A stretch of 64,000 nt of DNA. It comes from an uncultured delta proteobacterium. GTDB lineage: Bacteria > Desulfobacterota > Desulfobulbia > Desulfobulbales > Desulfurivibrionaceae. The translations under genes were made by a program, and so were the position numbers. The notes under the pieces were generated by a model. It saw nothing but the letters and a program-made list of their open reading frames with translations. It was not told the origin of the DNA and made no database searches. Location: the NCBI GenBank assembly GCA_903869265.1, contig CAIPYE010000001.1, positions 186,001 to 250,000 on the forward strand, in the 5' to 3' direction. Shown piece after piece: positions 22,264 through 41,528 of this stretch. How positions within the stretch are numbered: position 1 is the stretch's first letter; each line of letters opens with the position of its first letter.

Positions 22264-22641
22264 ATGGACAAACAGAATTTTTTGTTGGTGCGCAAGCGAC
22301 TTGGCAAAACCCAAAAACAACTTGCCGAGCTCCTGGGTTCGTCGACAAAGGCTATCCAGGGCTACGAACAGGGCTGGCGCTCCGTGCCCCCCCACGTCGA
22401 ACGGCAGGTTTTCTTCCTACTCTCCCGCCAGCGGCAGAAAAACAAATGTAGCCTTTCTCCTTGCTGGGAGATAAAAAAATGCCCGCCGGAGAGACGGGAG
22501 CAGTGCCCGGCCTGGGAATTTCAGGCCGGAGACTTATGCTGGTTCATCAACGGCACCATTTGCGAGTGCAAGGCCCAGAAAGACTGGAAGGGAAAAATGA
22601 CTATCTGTCGAGATTGTGAAGTGCTCACCCCGTTTCTTTAA
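22264..22641 (+). CDS. HTH regulator with C-terminal two-CW (cysteine-rich) domain
   Basis: A 125-residue protein. Residues 1-60 form a short XRE-like helix-turn-helix ([19 protein letters not shown]...IQGYEQGWR). Residues 62-125 are Cys/Trp-rich: [32 protein letters not shown] and CRDCEVL, matching the two-CW domain pattern found in Desulfobacterota and Geobacter sensory proteins, likely a metal- or redox-binding module. The combination suggests a small redox- or metal-responsive repressor. A palindrome overlaps its own predicted promoter. The downstream gene is a cysteine synthase, so a link to sulfur or cysteine status is possible but speculative. Confidence 0.75.
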
Positions 22642-22738
22642 TTTTTCTCTCTTTCAAGGTGGGGAAAAACCCATCCCCGGCTTTTTCAACCACCAAGCCA
22701 AGCAAGACTTTTCCCCATTCATCGCAGGAGGATGCCCC

Positions 22739-23668
22739 ATGCCACAAATTTCCCCTGACATCACCGCAATCATAGGCAATACCCCCTTGCTCAGACTGTC
22801 TCGACTCGGGTCAGGGCTGGAGGCCCAACTACTTGCCAAGCTGGAATTCCAGAACCCACTGGGGAGCGTCAAGGATCGTATCGGCCTGGCCATGGTCAAC
22901 GCCGCCGAGGAGCAAGGACTGCTTAATCCGACCACCACCATCATCGAGCCAACCAGCGGCAATACCGGCATCGCCCTGGCCTTTGTCTGTGCCGCCAGAA
23001 AATACCGGCTTGTCCTGACCATGCCGGAAACCATGAGCCTGGAACGGCGGACCCTTCTCAAGCACCTGGGCGCCGAACTGATTCTCACCCCGGGCAGCGA
23101 AGGAATGAAAGGGGCAATCGCCAAGGCGGAAGAGCTTCTCGCCAAGACCCCGAACAGCTTCATGCCCAACCAGTTTACCAACCCGGCAAACCCGGAGATC
23201 CATCGCCGAACCACAGCCAAAGAGATATGGGAGGACACGGATGGCACCATCGATATTTTTGTGGCCGGGGTGGGCACCGGCGGCACCATCACCGGAGTTG
23301 GCGAGGCGATCAAGGCACAAAAATCGTCTCTGTATGTGGTGGCGGTGGAGCCTGCCGCTTCTCCGGTTTTATCCGGGGGAAAACCAGGCCCCCACAAGAT
23401 TCAGGGCATCGGCGCAGGCTTTATCCCAAAAATCCTCAACCTTGAAATTATTGACGAAATCATCACGGTGAGCAACGAACAGGCCATGGAAACCGCCCGC
23501 AGAATCGCCAAGGAAGAAGGCGTCCTCTGCGGGATTTCCTCGGGAGCCAACGCCTGGGCCGCCATGCAGATCGCCAGCCGCCCGGAAAACCGGGGCAAAC
23601 AGATCGTTTTTCCGCTCTGCGATACAGGGGAGCGATACTTGAGCACCGAACTGGTAAAGACTCTTTGA
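22739..23668 (+). CDS. cysK: Cysteine synthase (O-acetylserine sulfhydrylase)
   Basis: A 309-residue PLP enzyme making cysteine from O-acetylserine and sulfide. Start at 22739 has AGGAGG at 7-bp spacing; an in-frame extension to 22616 overlaps the previous gene and is not conserved. Lys45 in [11 protein letters not shown] is the PLP lysine; [13 protein letters not shown] binds substrate, [12 protein letters not shown] holds the PLP phosphate and [11 protein letters not shown] is the C-terminal signature. Length fits CysK; separation from CysM is not certain. It ends before an AT-rich 148-bp gap that starts the glycan locus. Confidence 0.93.
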
Positions 23669-26613: not shown

Positions 26614-26722
26614 TTTTTCTCACAACTCATGGAAAGTACTTCTAACCCGTGATCAAAAAGAAATTGACACAAGTCTCAATTCGCAGATCGCAGATGAATC
26701 CAACCAAGGAGTAACCGCACTG

Positions 26723-27472
26723 ATGGCTCTTCGTCTATCTGAAAGATTCAAAAACAGGCTAAAATTTTACCGGCACTATTGGCAATTCAAAAAACAAAAA
26801 GCTGTTTCGTCTCACGAATTTGCTTTGGCAAATTTCTATCCATGCATGAAGGACTGGGATGCCCCTAGCGGCAATGCCTCTGGTCATTATTTCCATCAAG
26901 ATTTACTCGTTGCCCAAAAAATATATTTGGCAAATCCTGCAACCCATGTTGACGTCGGTTCACGTATTGATGGTTTTGTTACCCATGTTGCTTCTTTCCG
27001 AAAGATCGAAATATTTGATGTGCGACCACTACAACAAAGTCCTTACCCAAACATCATATTCGTCCAAGCCGATTTCATGGGAGACTGTTCAAAGCTAAAA
27101 AACTATTGTGATTCGCTATCCTGCCTGCATGCATTGGAACATTTTGGGCTTGGGCGATATGGTGATGACGTTGACTATGAAGGACACCTGAAAGGGTTAA
27201 AGAACTTGGCTGGCATGATAAAATTAGGAGGGAAATTTTATTTTTCCGTCCCCATCGGTCCGCAACGGGTGGAATTTAATGCCCACAGAGTATTTGAGCT
27301 TCGATATTTAGACAGCCTTTTAAAGAGATGGTTCAGAATAGACTCACTTTCATATGTGGATGATAAGGGAGATATCCATCAAAATGTCCCCACTTCCGGC
27401 GCGTCATTCGACAACAATTTCTCTTGCGCCTATGGTTGTGGAATTTTTGAATTAACTAAGGTTGCTGATTGA
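26723..27472 (+). CDS. DUF268-family, methyltransferase-like protein
   Basis: A 249-residue protein with a Rossmann methyltransferase-like core: THVDVGSRIDGFVTHVASF in place of the SAM loop, IEIFDVRP, CDSLSCLHALEHFGLGRYGD and LAGMIKLGGKFYFSVPIG. These are hallmarks of the DUF268 family, common in LPS and capsule clusters, usually presumed to act on sugars or nucleotide sugars. Start at 26723 is preceded by AAGGAG at 12 bp; the longer frame from 26504 overlaps msbA and is unrelated. The gene is AT-rich compared with the flanks. Confidence 0.75.
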   Translation: MALRLSERFKNRLKFYRHYWQFKKQKAVSSHEFALANFYPCMKDWDAPSGNASGHYFHQDLLVAQKIYLANPATHVDVGSRIDGFVTHVASFRKIEIFDVRPLQQSPYPNIIFVQADFMGDCSKLKNYCDSLSCLHALEHFGLGRYGDDVDYEGHLKGLKNLAGMIKLGGKFYFSVPIGPQRVEFNAHRVFELRYLDSLLKRWFRIDSLSYVDDKGDIHQNVPTSGASFDNNFSCAYGCGIFELTKVAD

Positions 27473-27483
27473 CGACCAATATT

Positions 27484-28398
27484 ATGCCGAAAGCTCCTAA
27501 AGAAAATTCGCCTTATGGCCCCAAGTTGGACCTCCAACAACACCGTTCTTGGACGCAAAAAATCAGCAAGGCGCTTTCCCGCTTACCTGGACCTAACGCC
27601 TTGCCGTTCCTTCAACGTAAACCGTCACCGATGGACAACATCCCAATGCTCAGCATCGGCATCACCACCTTTGTCCACCGTTTTGAGGACTATTTCATTC
27701 CTCTCCTTACCAAGATTCGAGAATTTGACAAGGAAACCGAAATTGTTGTGGCCATCAATGGCGAACATCAGCAACCATTTGACGAAGAATTCCGGGCCAA
27801 AATTCTGCATTTCCTTGCCGACCATCCCAGAGTGTTTCCTGTTGTCTTCCCCGAATTTCACGGCGTGTCCAGGCTCTGGAACTCCATCATCACCCATGCC
27901 TCCCATGAGTTCATCCTGATGCTAGGGGACGACATCATGATCACCGATCCCAGATTCCTTACCACCATCAAACAGCACATCAATCAAAACCAAGGAAAGT
28001 CCTTCACCATCAATAAATCCTTTGCCCACTTCGTGTTGAGCCGAAAGGAAATCGATCGCCTGGGCTACTTTGACGAACGGCTGCTCGGTATCGGGGAGGA
28101 AGATGGCGACATCACCTGGCGTTATCATCAGGAATTTCGCCAGGAACTGGCCAATTACAAAATAAAGAGCTTTAAAAACTTTTCGGATCACAGTGTCCGA
28201 ACCTACAAACCAACGAACATCCAATGCCATTCCGGCACCAAGTACAGCCTGTTCAACAGGAATCTCATGGAGCAGAAATACCAACCTGACCCGCAAGGAT
28301 TCTGCGGCATGTTCGAACAACCAGTACGACTCATCGACCCAGGCCCCGAGCAGTATCCCAACGAACGGTTCTACCGCGAAAACAGGGATAAACTTTAA
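27484..28398 (+). CDS. Glycosyltransferase, GT-A fold (family 2-like)
   Basis: About 304 residues. After a basic, poorly conserved N-terminal 55 residues comes a GT-A type domain: MLSIGITTFVHRFEDYFIPLL, TEIVVAINGEHQ, then HEFILMLGDDIMI with an Asp-Asp that would serve as the metal-binding DxD. The segment LLGIGEEDGDITWRYH near the end is the acidic GT2 C-terminal region. A sugar transferred to LPS or another surface glycan is likely; donor and linkage are not readable. ATG at 27484 is chosen; a TTG at 27469 overlapping the previous stop is an alternative. GT10- and GT2-type genes follow closely. Confidence 0.75.
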   Translation: MPKAPKENSPYGPKLDLQQHRSWTQKISKALSRLPGPNALPFLQRKPSPMDNIPMLSIGITTFVHRFEDYFIPLLTKIREFDKETEIVVAINGEHQQPFDEEFRAKILHFLADHPRVFPVVFPEFHGVSRLWNSIITHASHEFILMLGDDIMITDPRFLTTIKQHINQNQGKSFTINKSFAHFVLSRKEIDRLGYFDERLLGIGEEDGDITWRYHQEFRQELANYKIKSFKNFSDHSVRTYKPTNIQCHSGTKYSLFNRNLMEQKYQPDPQGFCGMFEQPVRLIDPGPEQYPNERFYRENRDKL

Positions 28399-28406: not shown

Positions 28407-29366
28407 ATGACACTGGTACGGATCGTCAAGGACTGGGACTGGCCCGACTTGCTTCGACAAACTCCGGGAGGCACAGGGCGATGGGAAGATATCGACTTCG
28501 TCTTGTCAGAGTCGGAAGAGTGTGATTTCCTAGTGGTTCTCAACAACCGACTCAAAGAACCGGCAGCGTCCTTATGTCCACCAGAACATGTATGGATGGT
28601 GGTCCAGGAGCCATACTACCCCGGCCTAACAGACTGGGTGATAGAGCATCACACTCCTTTCGCCAGAGTATACACCCATCATCCTCAGGCGAACACGGCC
28701 ACAACCCGCTATTTCACCGCACCTCCGGCCATTCCATGGTACATCAACAAAGACTATGATGAACTTGCGCAAGCCCAAGTGCCGAAAAAAACAAAGAATA
28801 TTTCCTGGGTCGTGGGGTCCGGCAGCGACTTACCCGGTCATCTCGAGCGTGCGCGTTTCCTGCATTTTATTCAACAAACGGACCTGGAAATTGATCTTTG
28901 GGGGAGAGCGGTTCGCCCAATTGATGACAAATGGGACGGACTTGCCCCTTATCGCTTTTCCATTGCCGTGGAAAATAACTCCGGCCCGGACATGTGGACC
29001 GAAAAACTGGCGGACTGCTTCTTGAGTTGGAACATCCCCTTCTACCACGGTTGTACTAACCTGGAAAAATATTTTCCCCAGGAGGCATTCATCCCCATAG
29101 ACATCAACAATCCGACAGAAGCGCTCGCGACAATCCGCCGCGAGGCGACACCGGAAAGTTGGCAGGCAAGGCTCCCCGCTTTAGCCAAGGCGCGTCAACT
29201 CGTGCTCGATAAATACCAACTTTTTCCTTTTCTGGTCGAACAAATCAAAAGGGAACTTCCTGCTGAGAACACGGCCAAAAGGCTTGTGACCATACCTCCC
29301 TATCACCGTAGCCCTTTAGCACGCTGCCGCAGAATTTTCTACAAAGCAAAACGACGTTTTTTTTGA
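28407..29366 (+). CDS. GT10-family (fucosyltransferase-like) glycosyltransferase
   Basis: A 319-residue GT-B type enzyme. The C-terminal half shows the alpha-1,3-fucosyltransferase-type donor signature: YRFSIAVENNSGPDMWTEKL, then FYHGCTNLEKYFPQEAFIPIDI. The N-terminal acceptor domain has CDFLVVLNNRL and VWMVVQEPYY. GT10 enzymes use GDP-fucose or related sugars. No GDP-fucose genes are in this window, so the donor is uncertain. It starts 8 bp after the preceding glycosyltransferase and ends 6 bp before the next, so the three belong to one operon. Confidence 0.75.
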   Translation: MTLVRIVKDWDWPDLLRQTPGGTGRWEDIDFVLSESEECDFLVVLNNRLKEPAASLCPPEHVWMVVQEPYYPGLTDWVIEHHTPFARVYTHHPQANTATTRYFTAPPAIPWYINKDYDELAQAQVPKKTKNISWVVGSGSDLPGHLERARFLHFIQQTDLEIDLWGRAVRPIDDKWDGLAPYRFSIAVENNSGPDMWTEKLADCFLSWNIPFYHGCTNLEKYFPQEAFIPIDINNPTEALATIRREATPESWQARLPALAKARQLVLDKYQLFPFLVEQIKRELPAENTAKRLVTIPPYHRSPLARCRRIFYKAKRRFF

Positions 29367-29372: not shown

Positions 29373-30179
29373 ATGCCACATATCAGTATCATTATCTCTT
29401 TTTACGAGCGACTCTCTCACCTCCGGTGCTGTTTAGACTCACTCGTTTTTTCCAAGAACGATTTTTCCGAAGTAATCATTGCGGATGACGGCTCTTCACC
29501 TGCGACAGTTGAGCAACTGAGAGAGCATCTCAAGAAATACCATTATCCCATCCGACATATTTGGCAGCCAAAAGACGGTTTCCGGCTGGCAGCCTCCCGT
29601 AATAATGGCATAAGGGCTGCACAGGGGGATTATCTTATCTTCCTAGACTGTGATTTTGCCGTTGTTCCAGGTGCAATCTCCCAACACGCCAGAGCGGCGA
29701 AGCCTGGACGGTATGTGGCCGGCCTATGCAAATATCTCCCGCAAGCAGAGACAGAACATTTCATGCAGGCTGAAATAACACCCGAGCTATTGACCACCCA
29801 CTACCATAATCTGCCAGAGCATCCCATCCGCCGCGAACATTTCAAGTTCAACAAATATGCTTTGTTACGGGCGTTACGTCTCGTCGGCCCCCACAAACCT
29901 CAATGCAGCAGCCATTTCTCCATTTACAAGCAAGATTTAGAATTCGTTAACGGGTATGACGAGAACTTCGTTGGCTGGGGCGGAGAGGATGAAGATTTAT
30001 CGGTGCGACTCAATATGGCGGGGTTCTCGGGACATTCGCTCATCACGACGGCCAAGGTGCTTCACCTATGGCACCGCCACGAACTAAAAACCGCGGACTG
30101 GCGAGAAGGAGCGAATGTTGCCTATCTCAAGCGGAAACAAATCTGTTACCGTTGCGCAAACGGACTCGCGCGTCCTTAG
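29373..30179 (+). CDS. Family 2 glycosyltransferase with galactosyltransferase-type C-terminal domain
   Basis: A 268-residue enzyme. The GT2 domain opens with PHISIIISFYERLSHLRCCLDSL, has VIIADDGSS and DYLIFLDCDFAVVPG (metal-binding acidic motif). The C-terminal segment GYDENFVGWGGEDEDLSVRL is the chondroitin-synthase/N-terminal galactosyltransferase signature, with the likely catalytic Glu-Asp. Role: adding a hexose to LPS core or O-chain. It is the last plus-strand gene of the glycan locus and overlaps the 3' end of the minus-strand operon by 4 bp. Confidence 0.85.
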   Translation: MPHISIIISFYERLSHLRCCLDSLVFSKNDFSEVIIADDGSSPATVEQLREHLKKYHYPIRHIWQPKDGFRLAASRNNGIRAAQGDYLIFLDCDFAVVPGAISQHARAAKPGRYVAGLCKYLPQAETEHFMQAEITPELLTTHYHNLPEHPIRREHFKFNKYALLRALRLVGPHKPQCSSHFSIYKQDLEFVNGYDENFVGWGGEDEDLSVRLNMAGFSGHSLITTAKVLHLWHRHELKTADWREGANVAYLKRKQICYRCANGLARP

Positions 30180-31033
30180 CCCAATCGTTTTCTCAAAAAC
30201 GCGGCAGCACCAGGAAGCCAATTGAGCTTACTCCGTTTGGCATTGTGGCAGTAACGGCACAAAACATCCTCCCTGTCATCAAGAAGGCTTTTCCGCAATT
30301 GCCTTGCGACTGGAGAAGTCAACATCTCATCATAGGTCATTTCGGCGAGATTCCCTAAAACGTAGTTCATGCCGTAATCCATGCCACATAAAATGACATC
30401 CCCGTTCGGAAGAAGCACGTTGTGGTCCAATCGGGTGTCACAACTTTTGCAGTGTACAATTCCTCTCAGCCGCTCTTGTTTGGTAATTCCAGGAAATTCG
30501 GTAAGGTTTCCTGCCCGGTCAACGACATCATGGCAGTTTATTCCGTCGCCAATAACCTTTTGCACCGTCGGAAGAATTTCACCAATGGTCATAAAGGTCA
30601 GAGCCTGGATATTGCATTCTCTCACCCTGGCAAGCTTATCCAGATAAACCGAATCCACCTTGATCTGCGTCATGTTGTTTGCATCAGGCAGATGGACCTC
30701 AAATACCCGGAATGGAAGATCCTTGATTGCCTCGATATCTTCTTTTTCCATGCCGACAAGTGTCGTATACACTGCCAAACTGTATCCTTTACTATGAGCA
30801 TACAGCAGCATTTCCGTACATTGCCTGTTCAACCATGGTTCAGCCATCCCGGAAAAATCGATACGAACATGTTTAGGCACCTTGTCCAAACATTTTTTAA
30901 AAAGGTCAAAAGGCATCTCAAAAAGATCGCTTCTGGCCTTATAAGCTTTGACAAAGGCATCCTGCGGACAATAACTACACGCATTTTTGCAACCGATCCT
31001 GGTCGTAATTTCCATCGTACTCATTCTACTCAC
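30176..31033 (-). CDS. Radical SAM/SPASM-like enzyme in the LPS operon
   Basis: A 285-residue radical SAM protein. The cluster motif CKNACSYCPQD gives Cys15, Cys19 and Cys22 very close to the N-terminus, and VRIDFSGMAEPWLN is the SAM-binding region. The C-terminal part carries more cysteines, CKSCDTRLDHNVLLPNGDVILCGMDYG and CRYCHNA, as in SPASM auxiliary-cluster domains. Substrate is unknown. It is the last gene of the 11-gene rfb/core operon, overlapping the upstream glycosyltransferase by 8 bp, which suggests a role in LPS or a linked metabolite rather than peptide maturation. No precursor-peptide gene was seen beside it. Confidence 0.8.
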   Translation of the reverse strand: MSRMSTMEITTRIGCKNACSYCPQDAFVKAYKARSDLFEMPFDLFKKCLDKVPKHVRIDFSGMAEPWLNRQCTEMLLYAHSKGYSLAVYTTLVGMEKEDIEAIKDLPFRVFEVHLPDANNMTQIKVDSVYLDKLARVRECNIQALTFMTIGEILPTVQKVIGDGINCHDVVDRAGNLTEFPGITKQERLRGIVHCKSCDTRLDHNVLLPNGDVILCGMDYGMNYVLGNLAEMTYDEMLTSPVARQLRKSLLDDREDVLCRYCHNAKRSKLNWLPGAAAFLRKRLG

Positions 31034-32177
31034 CTCTGTTGCGAGAAATACTCAAATGATCGTAAATGGCCTGGACCTTTTCAGCAACTTTTGACCAACG
31101 CTGATCGGCTACGGCTAATTTGGCAACTCGTCCCATTGCAATCCGACGAGGCGCATCCAGCGCCAACCCTGCAATAATCTCTGTTGCCCGTTCGATATCA
31201 TCACGCTCCACCACGAATCCGTTTTCCCCTTCCCTGACCAAGTCACAGGCGCCAACCGAGGGACTCACCATGACGGGCAATTCAGCCGCCATGGCCTCGC
31301 TAACCACCATGCCAAAGGTATCAAACCCGGAGAGCAACGCCAAAAGATCGGCGGAACGATATATGGCGGGCATATCATCCCGGACCCCGAGAAAACGTAT
31401 TTGCGCTCCCACCCCAAGGGCATCGGCTAATTCTTGATATTTCCGTTGATTGCCCTTCCCAACAACCAACAGGCAAAGGGTTCGCCCCGATTTCTTCTGC
31501 CGCAACCGAGCAAGAATGGCCAACAAGCGATCAAGCCCCTTGAGCTCAAAATTCATGCTGACAAAAAGCAAAACAAACAAATCTGAGGCAAGATCCAACT
31601 CCGCTCGTGTGCGATCGCGTTCCTGCTGGCCTGCCTGAAAAAAACAATCATCAACGCCTGGATGCATCACCTCCACTTTGCAGGCAGCTGCGGGGTAGGC
31701 TTGGCGAAATTTGCGTGCCGCCAGATTAGAAACCGGGAGCAATTGCCGGCAGTTACCAGGGACAGCCAACATTCGGCGCTCCAGGGCAATCGTGGCAAGA
31801 TCAAACAGGCTGAAAATCTTTTTTCGGCGCACTTCCCGAACCCAGATCGCATGGGGGATAAAATGCATGGAACAGAGATCCGCTTGGAAAAGGCGATCGT
31901 GGGCATGAACAAGGTCAAACCCCATGGACATGATCTTGCGCTGGGCAAACCAGGCGAAACTCAGCGTGGTCAACCACTTGGGAAAAGTGATTTGCCGTAC
32001 CTTGTGGAAGGTAACAGGCTCCGGTCCTGTCCGCCATTGATTGGCAAACACATGGATATCATTGTGTGGGTTTTCGGCAAGCCGCGCGGTTAGTTCAGCG
32101 GCAAAGCGTTCTCCACCGCCCACCAGGCCATACTTTGGAACCACCACGGCAATTTTTTTCCTGCCAGGGGTATTCAT
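31026..32177 (-). CDS. Family 4 glycosyltransferase (WaaG/RfaG-like)
   Basis: A 383-residue GT-B enzyme. N-terminal domain: KIAVVVPKYGLVGGGERFAAEL, with the Gly-rich acceptor loop, and FDLVHAHDRLFQADLCSMHF. C-terminal donor domain: LLFVSMNFELKGLDRLLAIL, FLGVRDDMPAIYRSADLLAL and the GT4 motif GFDTFGMVVSEAMAAELPV (EX7E type). The overall pattern resembles LPS core glucosyltransferase I. It overlaps the O-antigen ligase gene by 4 bp upstream and the radical SAM gene by 8 bp downstream. Confidence 0.88.
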   Translation of the reverse strand: MNTPGRKKIAVVVPKYGLVGGGERFAAELTARLAENPHNDIHVFANQWRTGPEPVTFHKVRQITFPKWLTTLSFAWFAQRKIMSMGFDLVHAHDRLFQADLCSMHFIPHAIWVREVRRKKIFSLFDLATIALERRMLAVPGNCRQLLPVSNLAARKFRQAYPAAACKVEVMHPGVDDCFFQAGQQERDRTRAELDLASDLFVLLFVSMNFELKGLDRLLAILARLRQKKSGRTLCLLVVGKGNQRKYQELADALGVGAQIRFLGVRDDMPAIYRSADLLALLSGFDTFGMVVSEAMAAELPVMVSPSVGACDLVREGENGFVVERDDIERATEIIAGLALDAPRRIAMGRVAKLAVADQRWSKVAEKVQAIYDHLSISRNRGE

Positions 32178-33451
32178 CCTTTCCTGCTCAGGGCTAAACC
32201 GTCGGAAGACTGGGCAAAGCGACCTGCGGCGGTGCTTACGGCAAAGCCAAGATAGAGCAAGGCCTCAAGGAAATGCACGCAGACCACATTAAAAAGACCA
32301 TAGATAGAATAGAGAAGGAGGATTGCAATTCCCAACCGCCCCAACATTCGCACCTCTTCATTTGCCGCTTTCCGAATCACCTGAACATTCATCCAGAGCC
32401 AGGTTCCCCAAATCCAACAAAATAGTAACAGGCCGGGCAACCCTGTACGGGTGGCTATTCCCATCCACAGGCTGTGTTGAATGTTTGTCTGGACGGAAGA
32501 ACGAATTTTCTCGGGTACTTGGGCACGATAATACTCAGGATCAACAACTTCTGGCTTACCGAACGAATCAATGCCGTAGCCGATACCGAACAAGGGATGA
32601 TCCTTTAACACCAACAGCGAAATATAATTGAGCGTCAACCGTGGGTTGTCAGGGTGTGTCAAGTCATGTCCGCGTTTCGTCTTCAGTAATAACCCGCCAG
32701 ACACCAATACAACGACCAAAAGAATAAGGAGCCATTTTTTATAGTCCCAAAACATGCCCAACAGGACAAAAGGGATTGCAACCCAGATAGAACGCATTTG
32801 GGTGCCAAACACAGTGAGAAGAAGCGGCAGCATACAGGCCAACACGATGTTGCGCCACAGGTGACGTTGTTCAACCATCCACAAATAAAAAGAGGCCAAC
32901 AAGGCGTAAAGCGCCATGAATCCCACTGCCCCAACAGTACTGGCATAATTCAAGAGAAGCATGCGGCTGTCCCAAGGTTGCCCCATCTTCCAGTACCAGA
33001 AATACAATTCATAGCACGAGGAGATAGCCAGAGAAATCACAAGGACTCTGAGCAACAATCGCACTCGCCCACAATCCCGAAGAAAGGTCAGGTAACAAAC
33101 GAAAAGCAAAATATAATCCAAGAGGTGCCGCCGAAAGTCATGGATGCTCCCCGTCCTATCCAGGGTAAAAAAAAGCCCGACAAAAGCCCAAAAGGTAAAC
33201 AAGGCTACCGGCAAGGTGAGAGGCGTTTTGAAAGGAGAAAGATCTTTGCTCCGAAACAAGATAACGGCATAACACGCCACGGCCAGATAATAACTCACCT
33301 CCCGGATCGTGGAGAGATGGGGGTATGGGTTTATAAAAGTATAGACCAGCAAGAAAAAGCCAGCGACGGAGCTCAGGCGACCATCCAAATGGTTCCCGAC
33401 CTCCGAAAAAAACGTCTCTTTCCCAATCGCACAAACTCGCATATATTTCAC
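32174..33451 (-). CDS. O-antigen ligase family protein (WaaL-like)
   Basis: A 425-residue polytopic inner-membrane protein with about ten to twelve membrane segments. The Wzy_C-type region includes MRSIWVAIPFVLLGM followed by a periplasmic loop with HPLFGIGYGIDSFGKPE and TNIQHSLWMGIATRTGLPGLL, where the Arg and His residues typical of WaaL/Wzy polymerase-ligase proteins occur. Position between core glycosyltransferases favours ligation of O-chain to lipid A-core, but O-antigen polymerase cannot be excluded. A second in-frame ATG lies 9 bp downstream of 33451. It is separated from the upstream GT9 gene by 198 bp with no visible gene. Confidence 0.8.
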   Translation of the reverse strand: MKYMRVCAIGKETFFSEVGNHLDGRLSSVAGFFLLVYTFINPYPHLSTIREVSYYLAVACYAVILFRSKDLSPFKTPLTLPVALFTFWAFVGLFFTLDRTGSIHDFRRHLLDYILLFVCYLTFLRDCGRVRLLLRVLVISLAISSCYELYFWYWKMGQPWDSRMLLLNYASTVGAVGFMALYALLASFYLWMVEQRHLWRNIVLACMLPLLLTVFGTQMRSIWVAIPFVLLGMFWDYKKWLLILLVVVLVSGGLLLKTKRGHDLTHPDNPRLTLNYISLLVLKDHPLFGIGYGIDSFGKPEVVDPEYYRAQVPEKIRSSVQTNIQHSLWMGIATRTGLPGLLLFCWIWGTWLWMNVQVIRKAANEEVRMLGRLGIAILLLYSIYGLFNVVCVHFLEALLYLGFAVSTAAGRFAQSSDGLALSRKG

Positions 33452-33649
33452 ATAAACTTAAGGATTTGATAACCGCATTGCTGGTTCCCATAAGGGGACA
33501 AAAAAGATCAGGAAAAATTCCCTCGGCCATTCACAGGTAGCCAGCCCCTGTCATGAGACTCCACTTAATACGAAGACGCAGATAGACTTTCCAGAAAACT
33601 CTCCAAAACCAAGGCATTGGGTAGGAGAGATAAATCTTGCCGATTATGT

Positions 33650-34852
33650 TCAATGGCACATGATGAAAATTTTCCATTTATTACGAGACAAGACGGGAGA
33701 CTCCTCCGTATCTTTGCGAAGCCCTTTATCCAGGGAAACATTCGGTTGGACAATCTTCCTTCCAGCCAGTTGTTGCACCGCCTCAAGAATCTCATCCACT
33801 GTCAATTCATCGAGGCATCGACTCCGCATGCTTCTTTGACAGCCGGTTTCCTTGCATGGTACACATTCCCATTTTTTGCGCACCACCAAATGATTCTCGC
33901 CCCTCGGCGCCCAAGTTTCAGGAACAGAAGGCCCATATATCGCCACAGTGGATGTGCCCGCTGCCGCAGCAATGTGAATGCCTGCGCTATCTACCCCAAT
34001 GAACAGAGAACATCTGCTGACCAGGGCACCGAGATCGGCCAAATCCGTACTGCCAGCCAAATTATGCACGCCTTTATCGAAGGCCTCGGCTATACGACGG
34101 CAAGAAGCGTGGTCCGCCTGAGAACCGACAAGAAGAATCTCGGCTCCAAATCTTTTCTGGAGTTGGCCAATAAGATCAATATATTTCCCTTCGGACAAAT
34201 CCTTATATCCCCACAACGAAAATGGGTGGAGCGCCATCAGGGGAGAATTTTCGCCAATCCCAATCGTCGCCAACAACTCAATAACACGCGCCCTTTGCCC
34301 TGAGGTTACCTCAAGCTTTGGATCAAGAAACGGGGTGGCAAAGCCATAGGCCGCGAGCATGTCATGGTAATATTCGGCAATGTACTGATTCTTTCCATTA
34401 GGTCCGGCAGGCGATACCATATGGGTGAACATCCAGTTGCGCCACATTTCTCCACAGGGAGTATATCGGCTGACTCGCACACGCGCGCCCGACAACCAAG
34501 CCATGACGGCCCCTCTCGAACTCGTGCGCAGGTCTACGGCCAAGTCAAACCCGATCCGGCGCAGTCGCTGCCAAAATTTAAGCTGATAGGTAACTTGCGA
34601 AAAAAGAGATCGTTTTTCTTTGTCCACAATCACAACTTCGTCCACCCACGGACAACAGGCCAAGAGGCCCGCAGCTTTCTTTTGAACAGCCATCGCCACC
34701 ATGATATCGGGACGGGTTTCCTTGACCGCCCGCGCACAGGGAAAGGTATAGAGCACATCTCCGATGTCGCCAAGCTGGATAAGCAACACACGAGAAACTT
34801 GGGCCATGTTTACTTGGCCGCCTTTTATATAGGTAAAGTACTCTGTTTTCAT
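33650..34852 (-). CDS. GT9 heptosyltransferase (ADP-heptose:LPS, WaaF-like)
   Basis: A 400-residue GT-B enzyme of family 9. The N-terminal VLLIQLGDIGDVLYTFPCARAV has the Asp of the acceptor loop; the C-terminal donor site shows LFIGVDSAGIHIAAAAGTSTVAIYGPS, the conserved heptosyltransferase signature. CVPCKETGC near residue 325 recalls WaaF/WaaQ cysteines. The start at 34852 overlaps the previous stop as ATGA; a second candidate at 34807 (MAQVSRVLLIQ) has AAGGCGG upstream and would sit at the usual family position, so the N-terminal 15 residues are uncertain. Confidence 0.88.
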   Translation of the reverse strand: MKTEYFTYIKGGQVNMAQVSRVLLIQLGDIGDVLYTFPCARAVKETRPDIMVAMAVQKKAAGLLACCPWVDEVVIVDKEKRSLFSQVTYQLKFWQRLRRIGFDLAVDLRTSSRGAVMAWLSGARVRVSRYTPCGEMWRNWMFTHMVSPAGPNGKNQYIAEYYHDMLAAYGFATPFLDPKLEVTSGQRARVIELLATIGIGENSPLMALHPFSLWGYKDLSEGKYIDLIGQLQKRFGAEILLVGSQADHASCRRIAEAFDKGVHNLAGSTDLADLGALVSRCSLFIGVDSAGIHIAAAAGTSTVAIYGPSVPETWAPRGENHLVVRKKWECVPCKETGCQRSMRSRCLDELTVDEILEAVQQLAGRKIVQPNVSLDKGLRKDTEESPVLSRNKWKIFIMCH

Positions 34853-36054
34853 ATTACGAATTCAATCTCATTATCACCCAGGAATGGGGCCAGCAAGGCC
34901 CTGCGATAGGAAGCCCGGTCGCAGGTGGCGGCATACCTCTGGCCCGCTTCTTGATACTGTCCACGCTGTTCTGGACTCAACCCTGCCACATCAAGCAAGG
35001 CCGACTTGAGGGAGGAAACGTTGTGCGGAACAAAAAGCAGGCCCAGGCCATATTGCCTTACCCTACGACCAAGAAGCTCTTGGTCGGATGCGATCACAGG
35101 CTTCCCGGCTGCAGCAGCTCTAGACAGAACCCCGCTTGAACCAAAATGATCCACATATGCCAACGAAACGGCATCGCAGGCAGCAAAGCTCTCTTCTTCC
35201 TCTGGTTGACCAACATGACGATTGATAACCCGGGCCATGCCCCGCCGCTCAAGCTCGGCAAGCCCTTCTGCAATCTCCGAATCACCAGCCAATTGGCCAA
35301 CACAGAGCAAATACAAGCCTGACTTTTCCATGCCAGGCTCGCTTAACGCGCGAACGAGCACATGCAACCCCTTGCGCCGACTGCCTAAACCATAATGCAA
35401 AACAACCACTCGATCAGTCGGCACCCCCAACCGTAGCCTTGCCGAGGTGGTATCACGGTGATAATTGCCACTCCACGTATCCGGCAAAAAGAAGGATTTT
35501 GTAAGAGGGAAACGTTGGCGCGCCACATCAAGCAAAGATTCGTCTAAAAAGTACACATGTTCAAACCATCCCGAACGACTCAATCGCGCAAATCCTATCC
35601 CTTTCAACAGGTTACCCGGAGGCCACATGGAAGAGGCAAGGAACCGAGGCCGAAAATAAATGCCGCTCATGCGGCCACGGAGTTCCGGAGGCGGAAAGAA
35701 CCCCAGAGCAACCTTCCGTAGACAGGATGGTGCGATCTCGTCAAGGTTGGGCAAAAATATATGGTCCGCACCGCTGCTCTGGAAACAAGAAACAAGCGCT
35801 GCCATCTTCGAACCGTGAAGATATCGACCATTATTGCCAAAGACAGAAACAAGATTCACCTCAGTTGCAAGAGGGCCAAGATGGTCGTAAACCATTTCCC
35901 TGCTCCCCGGACGGAGATCGACCGCCAGGGTAAGCCGAAAACCGGCTTGAAGAAAATCCTCGCACACATAGGTGAGCCAAGGCAAATGATGCCCTTGGAC
36001 CCTGGGGTCGAAAATAAACAAATGGCGACCAGCCGGAAAAGACATCCGCATCAT
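34849..36054 (-). CDS. Family 4 glycosyltransferase
   Basis: About 401 residues from the ATG at 36054, which overlaps the heptosyltransferase stop (ATGA) behind the ribosome-site-like AAGGGGA; a longer frame to 36180 lies wholly inside the upstream gene. GT-B layout: FIFDPRVQGHHLPWLTYVC at the N-terminus, VVVLHYGLGSRRKGLHVLVRAL at the start of the donor domain and a GT1-type motif AACDAVSLAYVDHFGSSGVLSRAAAAGKPV. The N-terminal domain is less typical of GT4, so sugar specificity is open. Embedded between two heptosyltransferase genes, it should act on the inner core or its substituents. Confidence 0.78.
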   Translation of the reverse strand: MMRMSFPAGRHLFIFDPRVQGHHLPWLTYVCEDFLQAGFRLTLAVDLRPGSREMVYDHLGPLATEVNLVSVFGNNGRYLHGSKMAALVSCFQSSGADHIFLPNLDEIAPSCLRKVALGFFPPPELRGRMSGIYFRPRFLASSMWPPGNLLKGIGFARLSRSGWFEHVYFLDESLLDVARQRFPLTKSFFLPDTWSGNYHRDTTSARLRLGVPTDRVVVLHYGLGSRRKGLHVLVRALSEPGMEKSGLYLLCVGQLAGDSEIAEGLAELERRGMARVINRHVGQPEEEESFAACDAVSLAYVDHFGSSGVLSRAAAAGKPVIASDQELLGRRVRQYGLGLLFVPHNVSSLKSALLDVAGLSPEQRGQYQEAGQRYAATCDRASYRRALLAPFLGDNEIEFVI

Positions 36055-37121
36055 TCCCCTTTCCCGCTTCCGGGCGCAGACAACAATGGGTTGACCGCCG
36101 CGACAACATCTTCCACCATAATTTGCTTCATGCAGGCCGTAGTCCCCAACGGACATTCCTTTTTCAAACATGGACTGCACGATATGGCGAGACGAATCAC
36201 TCGGTTTTTATCGCCATAAGGTCCGGTGCGCCAAGGAGCGGTCGGACCGAACAGAGCCACAACAGGGGTGCCGACCGCAGCCGCAATATGCATGGGCCCG
36301 GTATCGGTCGTGATCAGTGCTTTTGCCAGCCCATAGAGCGCTGCCAACTCCTTCAAAGAGGTTTGCCCAGCCAAATTCGGCACCTCATTGCGCATCATGG
36401 CACAAATACTTCCAATTGCCTGCCGGTCGTTTTCTCCCCCAGTAAAAACAACGGTGTTCCCCTCATCCACCAACCGGTCCGCCAGAAGAGCAAATTTTTC
36501 ATCTTGCCAGTGTTTGGTCGGCCAGGTAGTCATGGGGTTGATCGCCACAAGAGGCCGCCCCGATGACGCTCCGCTTGTTCGCAACAGATCCAAAGCACTG
36601 TGACGGGAGCCATTGCTGACAGGCAAATCAAAGACAACATCCTTGCAGTCTATCTTGATTGAGCGTAAGAGTTGCAACTCCCTATCCACCGCATGTTGAT
36701 CCATGCTCACTGCCGGAATTCTTTCGTTCAGGAAGACATAACTCATCTCCGAGTGATCCATACCCGATCCATAGCCGATTTTTCGCTTGGCATGCGCCAA
36801 TGCCACCCAGATGCTGCTTTTAAGAAGATTCTGAAAGTCGATGAGCAGATCATAGCGGGTGTCGCGCACCGTTTGCGCAAAACGCAGGGCCTGCTGCAGT
36901 GCAGCCAACCTCTGCCCCTGGCGCCACATCCTAATCCATTCCTTACGCCTGACTATCAACACGCGGTCAAGGGCAGGATGCCCCTGGACGATATCCACGG
37001 CAGCCTCCTCAATCAACCAGGTTATATGAGCTTCAGGGAAATGCTGGCGCAGGCAATTCAAGGCGGGCAGCGTATGGATCACATCACCGATGGCGCTGGT
37101 TTTGACGATCAGAATATTCAC
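36051..37121 (-). CDS. GT9 heptosyltransferase I-like (WaaC-like)
   Basis: A 356-residue family 9 enzyme. MNILIVKTSAIGDVIHTLPAL is the WaaC-type N-terminus (acceptor Asp), followed by YDLLIDFQNLLKSS. The donor site ALITTDTGPMHIAAAVGTPVVALFGPTAPWRTGPYG is highly characteristic, and the Cys-rich SCSPCLKKECPLG segment follows. WaaC adds the first heptose to Kdo of the LPS inner core. It starts 27 bp after the WaaE-like gene; the next gene overlaps by 4 bp. Confidence 0.9.
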   Translation of the reverse strand: MNILIVKTSAIGDVIHTLPALNCLRQHFPEAHITWLIEEAAVDIVQGHPALDRVLIVRRKEWIRMWRQGQRLAALQQALRFAQTVRDTRYDLLIDFQNLLKSSIWVALAHAKRKIGYGSGMDHSEMSYVFLNERIPAVSMDQHAVDRELQLLRSIKIDCKDVVFDLPVSNGSRHSALDLLRTSGASSGRPLVAINPMTTWPTKHWQDEKFALLADRLVDEGNTVVFTGGENDRQAIGSICAMMRNEVPNLAGQTSLKELAALYGLAKALITTDTGPMHIAAAVGTPVVALFGPTAPWRTGPYGDKNRVIRLAISCSPCLKKECPLGTTACMKQIMVEDVVAAVNPLLSAPGSGKGE

Positions 37122-37148
37122 GCGGCAAACCTGCTATCAATACACACA

Positions 37149-37925
37149 TCACCGCCCATGGTTCTGCTCATTGCGAGTCATTTCCCACAGTTTTGCGTAT
37201 TTGAAAAAAATGTTGGTAGCATCACAGACCGCTTGAACAAACCCCTCCCATCCATCAAGAAACCCAAGCCTAAACAAATAATTATACATAAAAGCCCAAC
37301 TGGAACGGGATATCGCCTTCAGTAACGAACCGTTCACTCCTGTTCTGTGGAGTTCCACGGCACCGGCCGTGGAATAGCTATTCATCTTGGCCATGGTCTG
37401 GGCAAGGTTGCGGTTCGTATGATGAAAAATTGCCGCCTGGAGCTTTCCCACGGATCCATCCACAACCAACCCCTCATGCACAAGCCGGTCTGATATCCGG
37501 GCCTTTCCCGCTTGAAAAAAGCGGACAATGCGGTCCGGCCACCAGCCCGCATGCCGGATCCAACGGCCGCAAAAAAAATTCTTACGCGGCATCGAATATG
37601 CCGCATTATGCACTCCGCTCTCGACAACAGCTTGCAACTCAACGGCAAGTTCGGGAGAAACCCTTTCGTCCGCATCCAGCACCAAAATCCAAGGCTGGCT
37701 GCAGTGGTCGATGGCAAGCTGTTTCTGGCGGCCAAATCCCTGCCAGGCCTCGACAAAAACCTTTGCCCCAAACGACGTGGCAATATCCACAGTCTTGTCC
37801 GTGCTACCCGAGTCGATTACCACAACTTCCCGGGCAAAGTCGACACTCGCAAGGCACCCGGGAAGGCGTTCCTCCTCGTTCAAAGCGATAATAGCGACAG
37901 AAATAGGAAGATTACGATCAGGCAT
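37149..37925 (-). CDS. WaaE/KdtX-like core glycosyltransferase (family 2)
   Basis: A 258-residue enzyme. The N-terminal ISVAIIALNEEERLPGCLASV and EVVVIDSGSTDKTVDIA are GT2 signatures, with WILVLDADERVSPEL as the metal-binding motif. CGRWIRHAGWWPDRIVRFF and HEGLVVDG continue the WaaE family pattern (LPS core beta-1,4-glucosyltransferase acting on heptose I). It overlaps rfbB by 8 bp, so the dTDP-rhamnose genes and core assembly are in one transcript. Confidence 0.88.
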   Translation of the reverse strand: MPDRNLPISVAIIALNEEERLPGCLASVDFAREVVVIDSGSTDKTVDIATSFGAKVFVEAWQGFGRQKQLAIDHCSQPWILVLDADERVSPELAVELQAVVESGVHNAAYSMPRKNFFCGRWIRHAGWWPDRIVRFFQAGKARISDRLVHEGLVVDGSVGKLQAAIFHHTNRNLAQTMAKMNSYSTAGAVELHRTGVNGSLLKAISRSSWAFMYNYLFRLGFLDGWEGFVQAVCDATNIFFKYAKLWEMTRNEQNHGR

Positions 37926-39012
37926 AATGTCGAACTATCCACTCCCGGTAACTGCCGTTCATGACGGCACGCCACCACTCTTCGTTTGCAAGATACCAGG
38001 CGATGGTTTTCCGGATTCCGGTTTCGAAGGACTCGAGCGGTTCATACCCCAGTTCCTTTCCGCTTTTGCCTGCGTCTATGGCATAGCGCCGGTCATGTCC
38101 TGGCCTGTCCTTCACAAAAGTGATCAGATTTTCGGCCTTTCCGCCAGTCACGACAGGGGCGACAGGGAAGCGTTCCTGCAACTTGCCATCTGCCGAAACA
38201 GCCTCGTCGACCAGTTGACAAACCAGTCTCACGATATCGATATTCTTCCACTCATTGTTGCCTCCGATATTGTACACCTCTCCGACCCTGCCTTTTTCTA
38301 AGACCAAATCGATGCCCCGGCAATGGTCCTCCACATAGAGCCAATCGCGGATATTCAGGCCGTCGCCGTAGATGGGCAGATGTTTTGCCTCCAGAATATT
38401 GAGGATGATCAACGGGATCAGCTTTTCCGGAAACTGGTAGGGGCCATAATTATTGGAGCAGTTGCTGGTAGTGACCTCCAGTCCGTAGGTATGGTGGTAC
38501 GCCCGCACCAGATGGTCGGAGGCCGCCTTGCTCGCCGAATAGGGCGAGTTGGGGGCATAGGGTGAGGCCTCCGTGAAGGGCGGCGCTTCCGAGGTGAGCG
38601 AGCCATAGACCTCATCGGTGGAAACGTGGTGGAAGCGGTGCGATCGCCCCCCCCGGGCCAGCCAGACCTTTTTCGCCGCCTTGAGCAGGCTGTGGGTGCC
38701 GACCACATTGGTGGTCACGAAGGGGTCCGGTCCATGGATGGAGCGGTCCACATGGGATTCGGCGGCAAAGTTGACCACGGTGTCAAGACCCTCATCAACC
38801 AACAGGGTTTCGACCAAGTCTTGATCCCCGATGTCTCCATGGACAAAACGAAAATTATCCTGCTCCAAACACCCCGCGAGACTGGCCATGTTTCCGGCAT
38901 AGGTCAGGGCATCGAGCACCACCAGCCGATCCTGCGGATGGTGGGCCAGCCAGTAGTGGACAAAATTGGCCCCGATAAACCCCGCCCCGCCGGTAACCAG
39001 CAGCTTATGCAC
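37918..39012 (-). CDS. rfbB: dTDP-glucose 4,6-dehydratase
   Basis: A 364-residue extended short-chain dehydrogenase/reductase enzyme, second step of dTDP-L-rhamnose synthesis. The start is probably the GTG at 39012: it has AAGGAG 7 bp upstream and puts the NAD loop VTGGAGFIGANFV at the normal position, while the ATG at 39033 lies deep in rfbD. Motifs: STDEVYGSL (active Thr/Asp), YSASKAASDHLVRAY (Tyr-x-x-x-Lys), SNNYGPYQFPEKLIPL and YVEDHCRGIDLVL. It overlaps the end of rfbD by 8 bp. Confidence 0.93.
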   Translation of the reverse strand: MHKLLVTGGAGFIGANFVHYWLAHHPQDRLVVLDALTYAGNMASLAGCLEQDNFRFVHGDIGDQDLVETLLVDEGLDTVVNFAAESHVDRSIHGPDPFVTTNVVGTHSLLKAAKKVWLARGGRSHRFHHVSTDEVYGSLTSEAPPFTEASPYAPNSPYSASKAASDHLVRAYHHTYGLEVTTSNCSNNYGPYQFPEKLIPLIILNILEAKHLPIYGDGLNIRDWLYVEDHCRGIDLVLEKGRVGEVYNIGGNNEWKNIDIVRLVCQLVDEAVSADGKLQERFPVAPVVTGGKAENLITFVKDRPGHDRRYAIDAGKSGKELGYEPLESFETGIRKTIAWYLANEEWWRAVMNGSYREWIVRHYA

Positions 39013-39880
39013 CACGGTTCTCCTTATATTCAAGCAACATCCGCCGCAGAGCCTGCCGCCAATGGCTGGGCGTCATCTCCAAGGCCGCCCAGGTCTCGGT
39101 CTTGTCCAACACGCTGTAGGCTGGCCGCTTGGCCGGAGTCGGATAATCAACGGTACTGATGGGACGGATGGGGATTTCCCGTTCAAGCAGCCCACAGCCA
39201 AGCCCCTCTTCCTGGATGGCCACGGCAAAATCATACCAGCTGGCCACCCCGGCATCGGTCCAGTGCCAGATTCCCTTTGGCTGCACTCGACACATCTGCC
39301 ATAAAGCCTCTGCCAGACTATGTGCCCAGGTTGGGGTGCCGACCTGATCCGCCACCACCCCGATGGTTTCCCGCTCAGCCATGAGCCGTAGCATGGTGGT
39401 GACAAAATTATTGCCGAAAGCGGAATAGAGCCAGGCGGTACGAACAACAGCTACCCCCTCCGGATAGGCCGCAAGCGCCAGCTGCTCACCGGCCAGCTTG
39501 CTGGCCCCGTAAACACCCAAGGGGTTTGCCTGGTCCATGGGCAGATAGGGGCGGGACTGCGCGCCGTCAAAGACAAAATCCGTAGATACCTGAATACAGT
39601 AAGCGCCAACCGACCGGGCCGACTGGGCAAGATTTGCCGCACCTTGGCCATTAACGGCAAAAGCAGCCTCCTGCTCCCTTTCTGCCCGGTCCACCGCAGT
39701 GTAGGCGGCGGCATTGATAATCACCTGGGGATGAAAGGCATCCACCCTGGCCGCCACAAGTCGTGCCTCCCGAAGATCAAGCTCCTGGGATCCCAAAGCC
39801 AGCAGCTCCATATCGGCCGGTTTGCAATGCTGCAGTTCCCTGCCCAGCTGGCCGCTGCCGCCGACAAGCAAAACCCTCAT
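39005..39880 (-). CDS. rfbD: dTDP-4-dehydrorhamnose reductase
   Basis: A 291-residue NADPH-dependent reductase giving dTDP-L-rhamnose. [16 protein letters not shown] is the cofactor loop, INAAAYTAVDRAE the family signature, STDFVFDG the active-site segment, YGASKLAGE the Tyr-x-x-x-Lys pair and RTAWLYSAFGNNFV completes the match. It overlaps rfbC by 4 bp and rfbB by 8 bp, and the ribosome site of rfbB lies inside its last codons. Confidence 0.93.
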   Translation of the reverse strand: MRVLLVGGSGQLGRELQHCKPADMELLALGSQELDLREARLVAARVDAFHPQVIINAAAYTAVDRAEREQEAAFAVNGQGAANLAQSARSVGAYCIQVSTDFVFDGAQSRPYLPMDQANPLGVYGASKLAGEQLALAAYPEGVAVVRTAWLYSAFGNNFVTTMLRLMAERETIGVVADQVGTPTWAHSLAEALWQMCRVQPKGIWHWTDAGVASWYDFAVAIQEEGLGCGLLEREIPIRPISTVDYPTPAKRPAYSVLDKTETWAALEMTPSHWRQALRRMLLEYKENRGA

Positions 39881-40422
39881 GGATATAACTCCGCCTCAGC
39901 CAGTGAGACCCCGGCCAAATCCTTAGCCGACAACAGAGGCGCCTGAGCCAACAACCGCCAGGCGATGCCCAGTTCAGGATCATCCCAGCGGATACAACGC
40001 TCATGCTCCGGGGCGTACAACTCCGTGCACTTGTAGACAAATTCAGCCTCGGGGCTCAGCACGTAAAAACCATGGCCAAAACCCGGCGGCACCCAGAGCA
40101 TCTTCTTGTTTTCCGCAGAGAGGATATCCCCAATCCATTTACCAAAAGTGGGAGAACTTTTTCGCAGGTCAACGGCCACATCAAACACCTCGCCGCTGAT
40201 CACCCGCACCAGCTTGCCCTGGGGCTTTTCGATCTGGTAATGCAACCCGCGCAGTGTTCCCTGCACAGACTTGCTGTGGTTATCCTGAACAAAGTGAAGA
40301 TCTAGTCCCGCAGCGGCAAACTTTACGGCATGCCAGGTCTCCATAAAAAACCCCCGGGAATCCCCAAAAACCTGGGGCTCAATGAGCAACACATCGGGAA
40401 TCTCTGTGGGCAGAAACCTCAT
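39877..40422 (-). CDS. rfbC: dTDP-4-dehydrorhamnose 3,5-epimerase
   Basis: A 181-residue cupin-fold epimerase. [40 protein letters not shown] with the catalytic His, [18 protein letters not shown] and [24 protein letters not shown] are the complete set of RfbC motifs. Length is normal. It overlaps its neighbours rfbA and rfbD by 4 bp each. Confidence 0.94.
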
Positions 40423-41297
40423 TGACCCTGCTCCTCGTCGAGAATCTGGAGCAGATACTGGCCATAGCCGTTTTTCTTCAGAGGCTCGGCCAACTGCGCC
40501 AGTTGGGCGCCATCGATGTACCCCATCCTGAAGGCGATCTCCTCAAGGCAGGCAATCTTCAAGCCCTGCCGGTCTTCCATGACCTTGATGAAATTGGCCG
40601 CATCCAGCAAGGAATTATGGGTGCCGGTGTCAAGCCAGGCCGTTCCCCGCCCCAAAAGTTCGACCTGCAACTTCCCCTTGGCAAGATAGACCTTGTTGAC
40701 ATCGGTTATCTCAAGCTCCCCACGGGCCGAAGGCTTAAGATTTCTGGCAATCTCCACCACCTGGCTGTCATAGAAATAAAGACCGGTCACTGCGTAACGG
40801 GATTTTGGCTTGGCCGGTTTTTCCTCGATATCAAGCACGGTTCGATCCGAGGCAAAGGAGATCACCCCATAGCGTTCAGGGTCACGCACATAGTAGCCGA
40901 AAACCATCCCGCCTTTGGGATCAGCCGCTTTGTCCTGAAGGGTCTTGGCAAGGCCGGGGCCATAAAAAATGTTATCCCCGAGAATCAGACAGACCGGCGC
41001 ATTGCCGATGAACTGTTCCCCGATCACAAAGGCTTGGGCAATGCCCTCGGGCCTGGGTTGCACCGCGTACTCCAGGCCAATGCCCCACTGGCTGCCATCG
41101 CCAAGCAACTGCATGAACTGCCCCTGGTCCTCCGGGGTGGTGATGAGCAAAACCTCCCGAATCCCTGCCAGCATGAGGGTGGAGAGGGGGTAATAAATCA
41201 TGGGTTTGTCATAGACCGGCAGCAGTTGTTTGCTCACCGACCGGGTCAGCGGATACAACCGCGTACCGGAACCACCTGCCAGGATTATTCCTTTCAC
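40419..41297 (-). CDS. rfbA: Glucose-1-phosphate thymidylyltransferase
   Basis: A 292-residue nucleotidyltransferase, the first enzyme of dTDP-rhamnose synthesis. The start is the GTG at 41297: it yields [17 protein letters not shown] at the exact family position and normal length, with GGAG about 10 bp upstream; there is no ATG in the short upstream extension. Motifs [28 protein letters not shown] and the C-terminal [10 protein letters not shown] are diagnostic. It is the first gene of an operon running through rfbC, rfbD, rfbB and the core glycosyltransferases. Confidence 0.94.
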
Positions 41298-41528
41298 TTT
41301 CGCTCTTCTCCCAAACAAACGCCGCGCCTACGGAAAGGCTTGCTTTTCTTGGCGGGTCATTTTATCTTCACACAAGATTTAGCCAACAAAATCCGACTAC
41401 CTAAAAAGGTCCGTTATCCTAGCGCATTTTGCAAGAAATAGAAAGTTATTAGATAGTGCCGACGCCTGTGTTGTTTGCCATACGAACAACCCCATCCACC
41501 CCCGATTATCATCAGCCGGAGCCGTGCC

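Follow-up and report, generated by a model that had tools for sequence, protein, structure and literature searches.

The radical SAM gene at the end of a lipopolysaccharide (LPS) operon in this uncultured delta proteobacterium probably encodes a twitch-type enzyme that modifies one sugar in the outer core or O-chain of the LPS, attacking a carbinol C-H bond and leaving the sugar either oxidised or inverted. We call the gene and its product rSAM, and the whole 64,000-nucleotide stretch of DNA that was analysed the window. An earlier note on the window had suggested a sugar or a lipid A-core component as the target. A sugar is the most likely substrate class, since the closest relatives keep glycosyltransferase neighbours, the gene occupies a slot for decorating enzymes, the related enzyme BtrN has a cyclitol substrate and there is no space beside rSAM for a precursor peptide gene; nothing seen points to lipid A.

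The gene is confirmed as real; its open reading frame lies on the minus strand, which the earlier note did not name, and on the plus strand the same interval is broken by stops. The product scores 34.8 bits with Pfam Radical_SAM (PF04055; cut-off 29.5, E 2.4e-8) and 37.6 bits with Pfam SPASM (cut-off 21.5, E 2.7e-9). The locus is laid out as follows.

28407..29366, plus strand: GT10 (fucosyltransferase-like)
29373..30179, plus strand: convergent GT2 glycosyltransferase, bounding the variable slot at its lower end
30176..31033, minus strand: twitch-type radical SAM gene (rSAM), 285 aa from the GTG at 31033
31026..32177, minus strand: GT4 glycosyltransferase, upper edge of the variable slot
32174..33451, minus strand: Wzy_C / O-antigen ligase-like membrane protein
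33650..34852, minus strand: GT9, heptosyltransferase-like
34849..36180, minus strand: GT4 glycosyltransferase
36051..37121, minus strand: GT9 heptosyltransferase, above the heptosyltransferase I and II cut-offs
37149..37925, minus strand: GT2 glycosyltransferase
37918..41318, minus strand: rmlB, rmlD, rmlC and rmlA (dTDP-L-rhamnose genes), rmlA first in the run

Translation of rSAM more likely begins at an ATG at 31024, giving 282 aa, than at the GTG, because a AGAGGTGAG ribosome-binding site lies upstream of the ATG and because it aligns with the first possible starts of the three closest relatives: nine bases past the position of the window's GTG, the first possible start codon is ATG in locus L013 and TTG in L014 and L015. 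Counting rmlA (40419-41318) as the first gene, the run reads rmlA, rmlC, rmlD, rmlB, GT2, GT9, GT4, GT9, Wzy_C-type ligase, GT4, rSAM, which makes rSAM the eleventh gene, as the earlier note had it. The same note called the operon translationally coupled; this holds for most joints, which overlap or abut, and not for those with gaps of 27 nt (37122-37148) and 198 nt (33452-33649). Promoter-like sites around rSAM numbered 4 against a shuffle mean of 4.8, and terminator-like sites 9 against 6.1, from which no conclusion is drawn. Elsewhere in the window (27469-28398 and 26504-27472), a 309-aa ORF matches only part of homologues of 543-554 aa in six loci (L013, L014, L015, L122-L124), those of L013-L015 additionally matching a GT2 profile; the window's ORF may have been shortened or rearranged behind a DUF268 gene.

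The joints on either side of rSAM bear on the possibility that it modifies a peptide or protein, as a RiPP maturase or an enzyme of the sulfatase-activating type, and sits in an LPS locus by chance. A single nucleotide separates the end of the GT4 stop from the rSAM ATG, and the stops of rSAM and the convergent GT2 overlap by 4 nt, which leaves no space for a peptide gene at either joint; the adjacent precursor gene expected of a RiPP maturase is missing among the immediate neighbours in the window, in agreement with the earlier note. Relatives are similar in that 10 of 15 have no gap of at least 100 nt to a called neighbour on their readable sides (such gaps occur in L019, L020, L022, L025 and L026). 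Furthermore, no SPASM enzyme that acts on peptides appears in the profile search described below, as far as E 10, and the seven-cysteine SPASM pattern is absent. We therefore give the peptide reading little credence, while noting that the SPASM/twitch class is rich in peptide enzymes, that the fold matches to anSME, SuiB and SkfB (Z 15.0 to 16.0) rank above those to DesII and BlsE, and that TPR domains lie ahead of several viral fusions of the family.

The class of the protein can be read from its cysteines. A full SPASM domain has seven. The features of rSAM that matter here and for the mechanism are these.

30968..30991, minus strand: CX3CX2C (C15, C19, C22), the radical SAM cluster motif, followed by Pro-Gln
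30692..30694, minus strand: His114, end of a predicted strand (110-114), candidate catalytic residue, in 162 of 162 alignment rows
30515..30517, minus strand: Arg173 of the R-A/G-G motif, candidate base
30449..30451, minus strand: C195, auxiliary-cluster ligand, aligns with BtrN C169
30386..30388, minus strand: C216 in LPNGDVxLC, auxiliary-cluster ligand, aligns with BtrN C187
30248..30259, minus strand: C259 and C262 (CRYC), auxiliary-cluster ligands, align with BtrN C232 and C235

The CX3CX2C motif is intact, as had been claimed, and recurs in 84 of 85 rows (one row is incomplete) and in all 80 viral rows. The label "SPASM-like" is corrected here to twitch: the C-terminal cysteines are intact and Pfam SPASM is matched, but the conserved auxiliary cysteines number four (C195, C216, C259 and C262, kept in 161, 162, 161 and 161 of 162 rows) and the further CX5CX3C ... 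C of the SPASM subfamily is missing. Because these four match the four of BtrN, rSAM is, by cysteine count, a twitch enzyme with one predicted auxiliary Fe-S cluster; two such clusters are typical of SPASM and one of twitch, according to the excerpted text of PMC9012708. No NCBIfam model reached its cut-off for the protein. Partial matches to spiro-SPASM TIGR04321 (34.2 bits, cut-off 250) and twitch NF033640 (20.4, cut-off 170) do not make it a member of either, a tungsten-oxidoreductase maturase name scored far under its cut-off, and PHROGs gave weak matches only (E 0.0039 and above).

Among solved structures, BtrN is the nearest relative by sequence profile and by fold. A profile built from 30 relatives ranked BtrN first (E 1.5e-12), followed by DesII (0.0021), a lipid enzyme from archaea (0.0093) and BlsE (0.019); the substrates of BtrN, DesII and BlsE are cyclitols or sugars. 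The predicted rSAM model (mean pLDDT 93.6, pTM 0.91) likewise had BtrN 4m7t as its best Foldseek match (E 8.8e-11) and its best VIA-align match (Z 18.9, rmsd 3.2, 224 of 246 residues aligned, 20% identity), ahead of anSME (Z 16.0), SuiB (15.8), DesII (14.8), BlsE (13.0) and SpeY (12.0). BtrN (2-deoxy-scyllo-inosamine dehydrogenase; PDB 4m7t, 4m7s) and rSAM have in common the CX3CX2C motif, the four aligned auxiliary cysteines and small size, and the predicted model shares the BtrN fold over most of its length. They differ in that identity is only about 20% and in that BtrN belongs to butirosin biosynthesis whereas rSAM lies in an LPS operon: the rSAM neighbours are rmlACDB, GT9, GT4, GT2 and a ligase, with no aminocyclitol gene recognised among them, and so lack the aminocyclitol context that would go with BtrN identity. 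The excerpted PMC9012708 describes a two-electron oxidation of 2-deoxy-scyllo-inosamine by BtrN, with the auxiliary cluster proposed as electron acceptor. One point against the sugar reading also comes from the predicted fold, in which the peptide-acting SPASM enzymes anSME and SuiB stand directly behind BtrN and above DesII and BlsE.

DesII and BlsE raise a further alternative, namely that rSAM carries out some other radical chemistry on a sugar: deamination or dehydration as in DesII, decarboxylation of a uronic acid as in BlsE, or a rearrangement. In the profile search they belong to the solved structures ranked next below BtrN, but both align over the radical SAM half only and with weak E-values, and we regard this alternative as improbable. 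SpeY (PDB 7wzv), a twitch dehydrogenase by its title, was matched by fold and is absent from the profile list up to E 10. HygY is reportedly a twitch radical SAM sugar epimerase. NeoN, also a radical SAM sugar epimerase, uses Cys249 as hydrogen donor (PMC10991966, in excerpt); the likeness of HygY and NeoN to rSAM is one of description, whereas the rSAM family shows no identifiable conserved donor cysteine. On our reading of these partial sources, removal of hydrogen from a sugar or cyclitol carbon may be the common ground of BtrN, HygY, NeoN and SpeY.

Conservation suggests which residues could carry out such a reaction. The alignment comprises 162 rows (80 viral and 82 cellular, including the window; 3 rows were dropped), which are not independent, the 80 viral segments representing 64 different sequences. 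Invariant throughout are the three radical SAM cysteines, Q24, E65 and H114, and position 173 is R in 158 rows, K in 3 and T in 1. Given this conservation, and the place of H114 at the end of a predicted strand, H114 and R173 would be the best catalytic candidates. In BtrN the substrate-binding residue is Arg152; the profile alignment of the rSAM family to BtrN leaves the middle of the chain unaligned, including the region where R173 would be compared with Arg152. Sequence marks of the family are a CPQ that follows CX3CX2C, then FxGxxEPW, R[AG]G and LPNGDVxLC. Across the 162 rows there is no invariant non-ligand cysteine that could serve as hydrogen donor: Cys72, just after the FSGMAEPW loop, is kept in 146, and Cys48 is mostly lost in the viral rows. 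Position 217 (the motif CCMD in many rows) was considered as a donor and rejected, since cellular rows carry C, S or G there and the protein of the window itself has Gly.

In the mechanism that we propose, cleavage of SAM at the CX3CX2C cluster would generate a 5'-deoxyadenosyl radical, which would take a hydrogen from a carbinol carbon (H-C-OH) of the sugar, with Arg173 and His114 holding the sugar hydroxyl and deprotonating it. Two branches could follow. In one, the ketyl radical would give an electron to the auxiliary cluster (C195, C216, C259, C262), producing a keto sugar as proposed for BtrN; in the other, the radical would be quenched by a hydrogen from the other face, producing an epimer as in HygY and NeoN. 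The convergent GT2 is probably the partner, either adding or receiving the altered sugar.

The second branch is a sub-case in its own right, whose odds overlap with those of the preferred reading: rSAM would invert one stereocentre of an in-chain sugar, redox-neutrally and with no need of a partner enzyme, Cys72 being the best donor candidate. We consider it a possible outcome but on balance the less likely one. Twitch sugar epimerases are known in HygY and NeoN (the latter from the excerpted PMC10991966), and the retention of Cys72 in most rows fits. Inversion also fits because the slot gene can stand alone and because no recurrent ketone user is seen: the 140 neighbour proteins at 14 loci fall into 132 families, and the 25 commonest of these (the last having 2 members) include no aminotransferase. 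Set against this are the variability of every non-ligand cysteine (Cys72, Cys48 and position 217 alike) and the fact that BtrN is a dehydrogenase. We lean slightly to oxidation over inversion, since the family has no invariant non-ligand cysteine and matches BtrN closely.

Comparison of the locus among relatives places rSAM in a variable slot between the GT4 and the convergent GT2. The three closest relatives (L013, L014 and L015; 56-64% identity) all keep the convergent GT2 and the GT10 beside rSAM. On L014 (the same as L005, and the longest contig) GT4, ligase, GT9, GT4 and GT2 are present too, arranged as in the window except that the second GT9 is missing, while at L013 (64% identity) rSAM, GT2 and GT10 are seen and the contig ends before the GT4. 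In five genomes of the same genus (L110-L113 and L122), the flanks (the rml genes and 19450-23668) are kept at 82-95% identity where covered, and the region between them differs. The window's slot holds rSAM alone. In L014 rSAM shares it with a dehydratase-type SDR, a methyltransferase and a 405-aa protein, and in L015 the 405-aa protein (90% identical to the L014 copy) and rSAM are visible. Without rSAM, the slot contains a dehydratase (Pfam GDP_Man_Dehyd), a methyltransferase and a 405-aa-type protein in L123, two WcbI genes in L122, an FkbM methyltransferase and a 252-aa protein in L124, and one 98-aa ORF in L125; in L112 and L113 the slot and the GT2 are gone and the GT4 faces the GT10. 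The sugar made by the L123 SDR is not fixed by its family, because rmlB matches GDP_Man_Dehyd too. Judged by sequence family, the recognised slot fillers are predicted sugar-decorating or sugar-making enzymes. The slot protein of 405-444 aa (L014:8270-9487, L123:7128-8462) is paired with a dehydratase-type SDR and a methyltransferase; it has no Pfam match, and the L014 copy has no NCBIfam match either.

The gene is rare in its order, being found in 3 of 193 sampled genomes at E < 1e-30 and in 1 of 17 of the genus (by the family profile, in 3 of 395 genomes of the phylum sample). The other two genomes of the order with rSAM belong to another family, and in each of them the succession GT10, GT2, rSAM is preserved. 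The convergent GT2 occurs in 7 of the 193 genomes, namely all 3 with rSAM and 4 without, a co-occurrence with a hypergeometric probability of 3e-5 when relatedness is ignored. Such patchiness could also mean that rSAM is cargo, a mobile gene brought by chance into a variable island and having no glycan role, and the existence of a rhizobial-type cluster of relatives away from glycosyltransferases would agree with this. However, none of the cluster cysteines, nor H114 or R173, has been lost from the window protein, the gene directly adjoins the preceding one, and across two families of the order it occupies the same position, at 56-58% identity. Cargo thus seems a remote prospect, and a role in decorating an LPS sugar remains the reading that we prefer.

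Within the window genome, 2 of 40 radical SAM hits lie within 5 kb of a GT2 or GT4 hit, rSAM among them; another radical SAM gene of this genome (G000:C14:271259-271675, L114) lies inside a GT4 gene cluster.

How closely the wider family is tied to glycan loci depends on how it is counted. A scan covering the genomes of 84,980 species, seeded with two short peptide patterns and so blind to relatives lacking both, gave 117 relatives, of which 80 were kept. The earlier note had stated that homologues mostly outside glycan loci would speak against its proposal, and by raw count that is where they are: only 14 of the 80 loci have a GT2, GT4, GT9 or GT10 within 5 kb. The raw count comes out this way because 56 of the 80 form a single rhizobial-type cluster (among them Sinorhizobium, Bradyrhizobium and Mesorhizobium) in which glycosyltransferases are absent from the surrounding 5 kb. 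When the sequences are clustered at 50% identity, a glycosyltransferase lies within that distance in 9 of the 17 clusters, and the closest relatives are inside glycan loci. Against a background of 6.5% (the share of the window genome's bases within 5 kb of one of 23 GT2/GT4 hits, and so a background from one genome only), the chance of 9 in 17 is about 3e-7 and that of 14 in 80 is 6e-4. A separate count found a glycosyltransferase within 5 kb at 16 of 27 loci, including an unreliable label at L078 that rests on an ORF antisense to rSAM. The 80-locus count, made with fewer seed profiles, scores neither L078 nor L022 as linked, and L022 has a GT2 by a second GT2 seed together with an FkbM gene. 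Two further relatives from the phylum sample adjoin GT2 genes or a methyltransferase-GT2 protein. Neighbours at the glycan loci include Wzx, GtrA proteins, a pyruvyl transferase, a UDP-sugar dehydrogenase, a UDP-GlcNAc 2-epimerase and FkbM. L016 (48% identity) and L017 (47%) have no glycosyltransferase nearby, so even rather close relatives can lie elsewhere. That the family is not confined to glycan loci, and that the GT2 partner occurs in 4 genomes without rSAM, both count against the sugar reading.

Two branches of the family deserve separate mention. The rhizobial-type branch (L029, L032, L034-L047 and others; plasmid loci L008-L011) includes a Cupriavidus pSym, and nif or hydrogenase genes lie beside rSAM in 3 of 4 related plasmid records with annotation. 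A strict sigma-54 -24/-12 match lies upstream in 14 of 56 rhizobial-type loci and in 23 of 1120 random same-locus stretches (the loci are related and not independent), and some of these members may be regulated with nitrogen fixation. Family members also occur in DPANN (Pacearchaeota) archaea, beside GT2 or FkbM genes (L018, L022).

Viruses carry the family as well. A scan of viral contigs gave 274 relatives, of which 80 were kept as a redundant set, and in 52 of the 80 the ORF is longer than 380 aa. An FkbM methyltransferase domain precedes the radical SAM part in 8 of 10 chosen viral proteins, and an FkbM or glycosyltransferase match occurs in 66 of the 80 viral loci by profiles trained partly on the same set. 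In Synechococcus phage DSL-LC02, such an FkbM-rSAM fusion adjoins a gene annotated as a beta-mannosyltransferase. FkbM-twitch fusions are seen at L138, L146, L151, L154, L166, L173 and other viral loci, and also at L093:8669-10822; several of the viral fusions carry TPR-like stretches in front, and some viral loci have glycosyltransferases.

A comparable genetic setting has been tabulated before. The 36-kb plasmid of Brachyspira hyodysenteriae has radical SAM genes beside glycosyltransferase and rhamnose genes, for which the excerpted report suggests a role in lipo-oligosaccharide (LOS) biosynthesis and/or glycosylation and shows none (PMC4267127); we liken this setting to that of rSAM by description only. 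No Brachyspira appears among the 22 records that match the rSAM protein in 72,556 plasmid records (E up to 10), a collection that may not include the 36-kb plasmid. Radical SAM genes among rfb genes are thus already on record, at least in that source, and twitch sugar chemistry is already known; what would be new is its place, an LPS operon, and the wide, little-studied family behind it. The titles and opening lines of abstracts listed by open-access literature searches mentioned no demonstrated activity for such a gene in an LPS locus.

The editing of bacterial surface sugars is known mostly at the nucleotide-sugar stage, ahead of transfer, or as O-modification afterwards, and antigens diversified by radical rewriting of a carbon in an LPS sugar would have arisen in another way. 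Comparison of the slots illustrates what this could look like, with one order and the same glycosyltransferases but rSAM, a WcbI pair or a methyltransferase set in the same place. Tentatively, and stopping short of calling it probable, we suggest that rSAM belongs to a large family of glycan-tailoring twitch radical SAM enzymes that oxidise or invert carbons of surface sugars in bacteria, DPANN archaea and viruses, often as fusions to FkbM O-methyltransferases. The FkbM fusions suggest that viruses carry the same sugar-editing chemistry. If this is true, radical C-H editing would be a common and overlooked way to diversify LPS, capsules and virus-encoded glycans.
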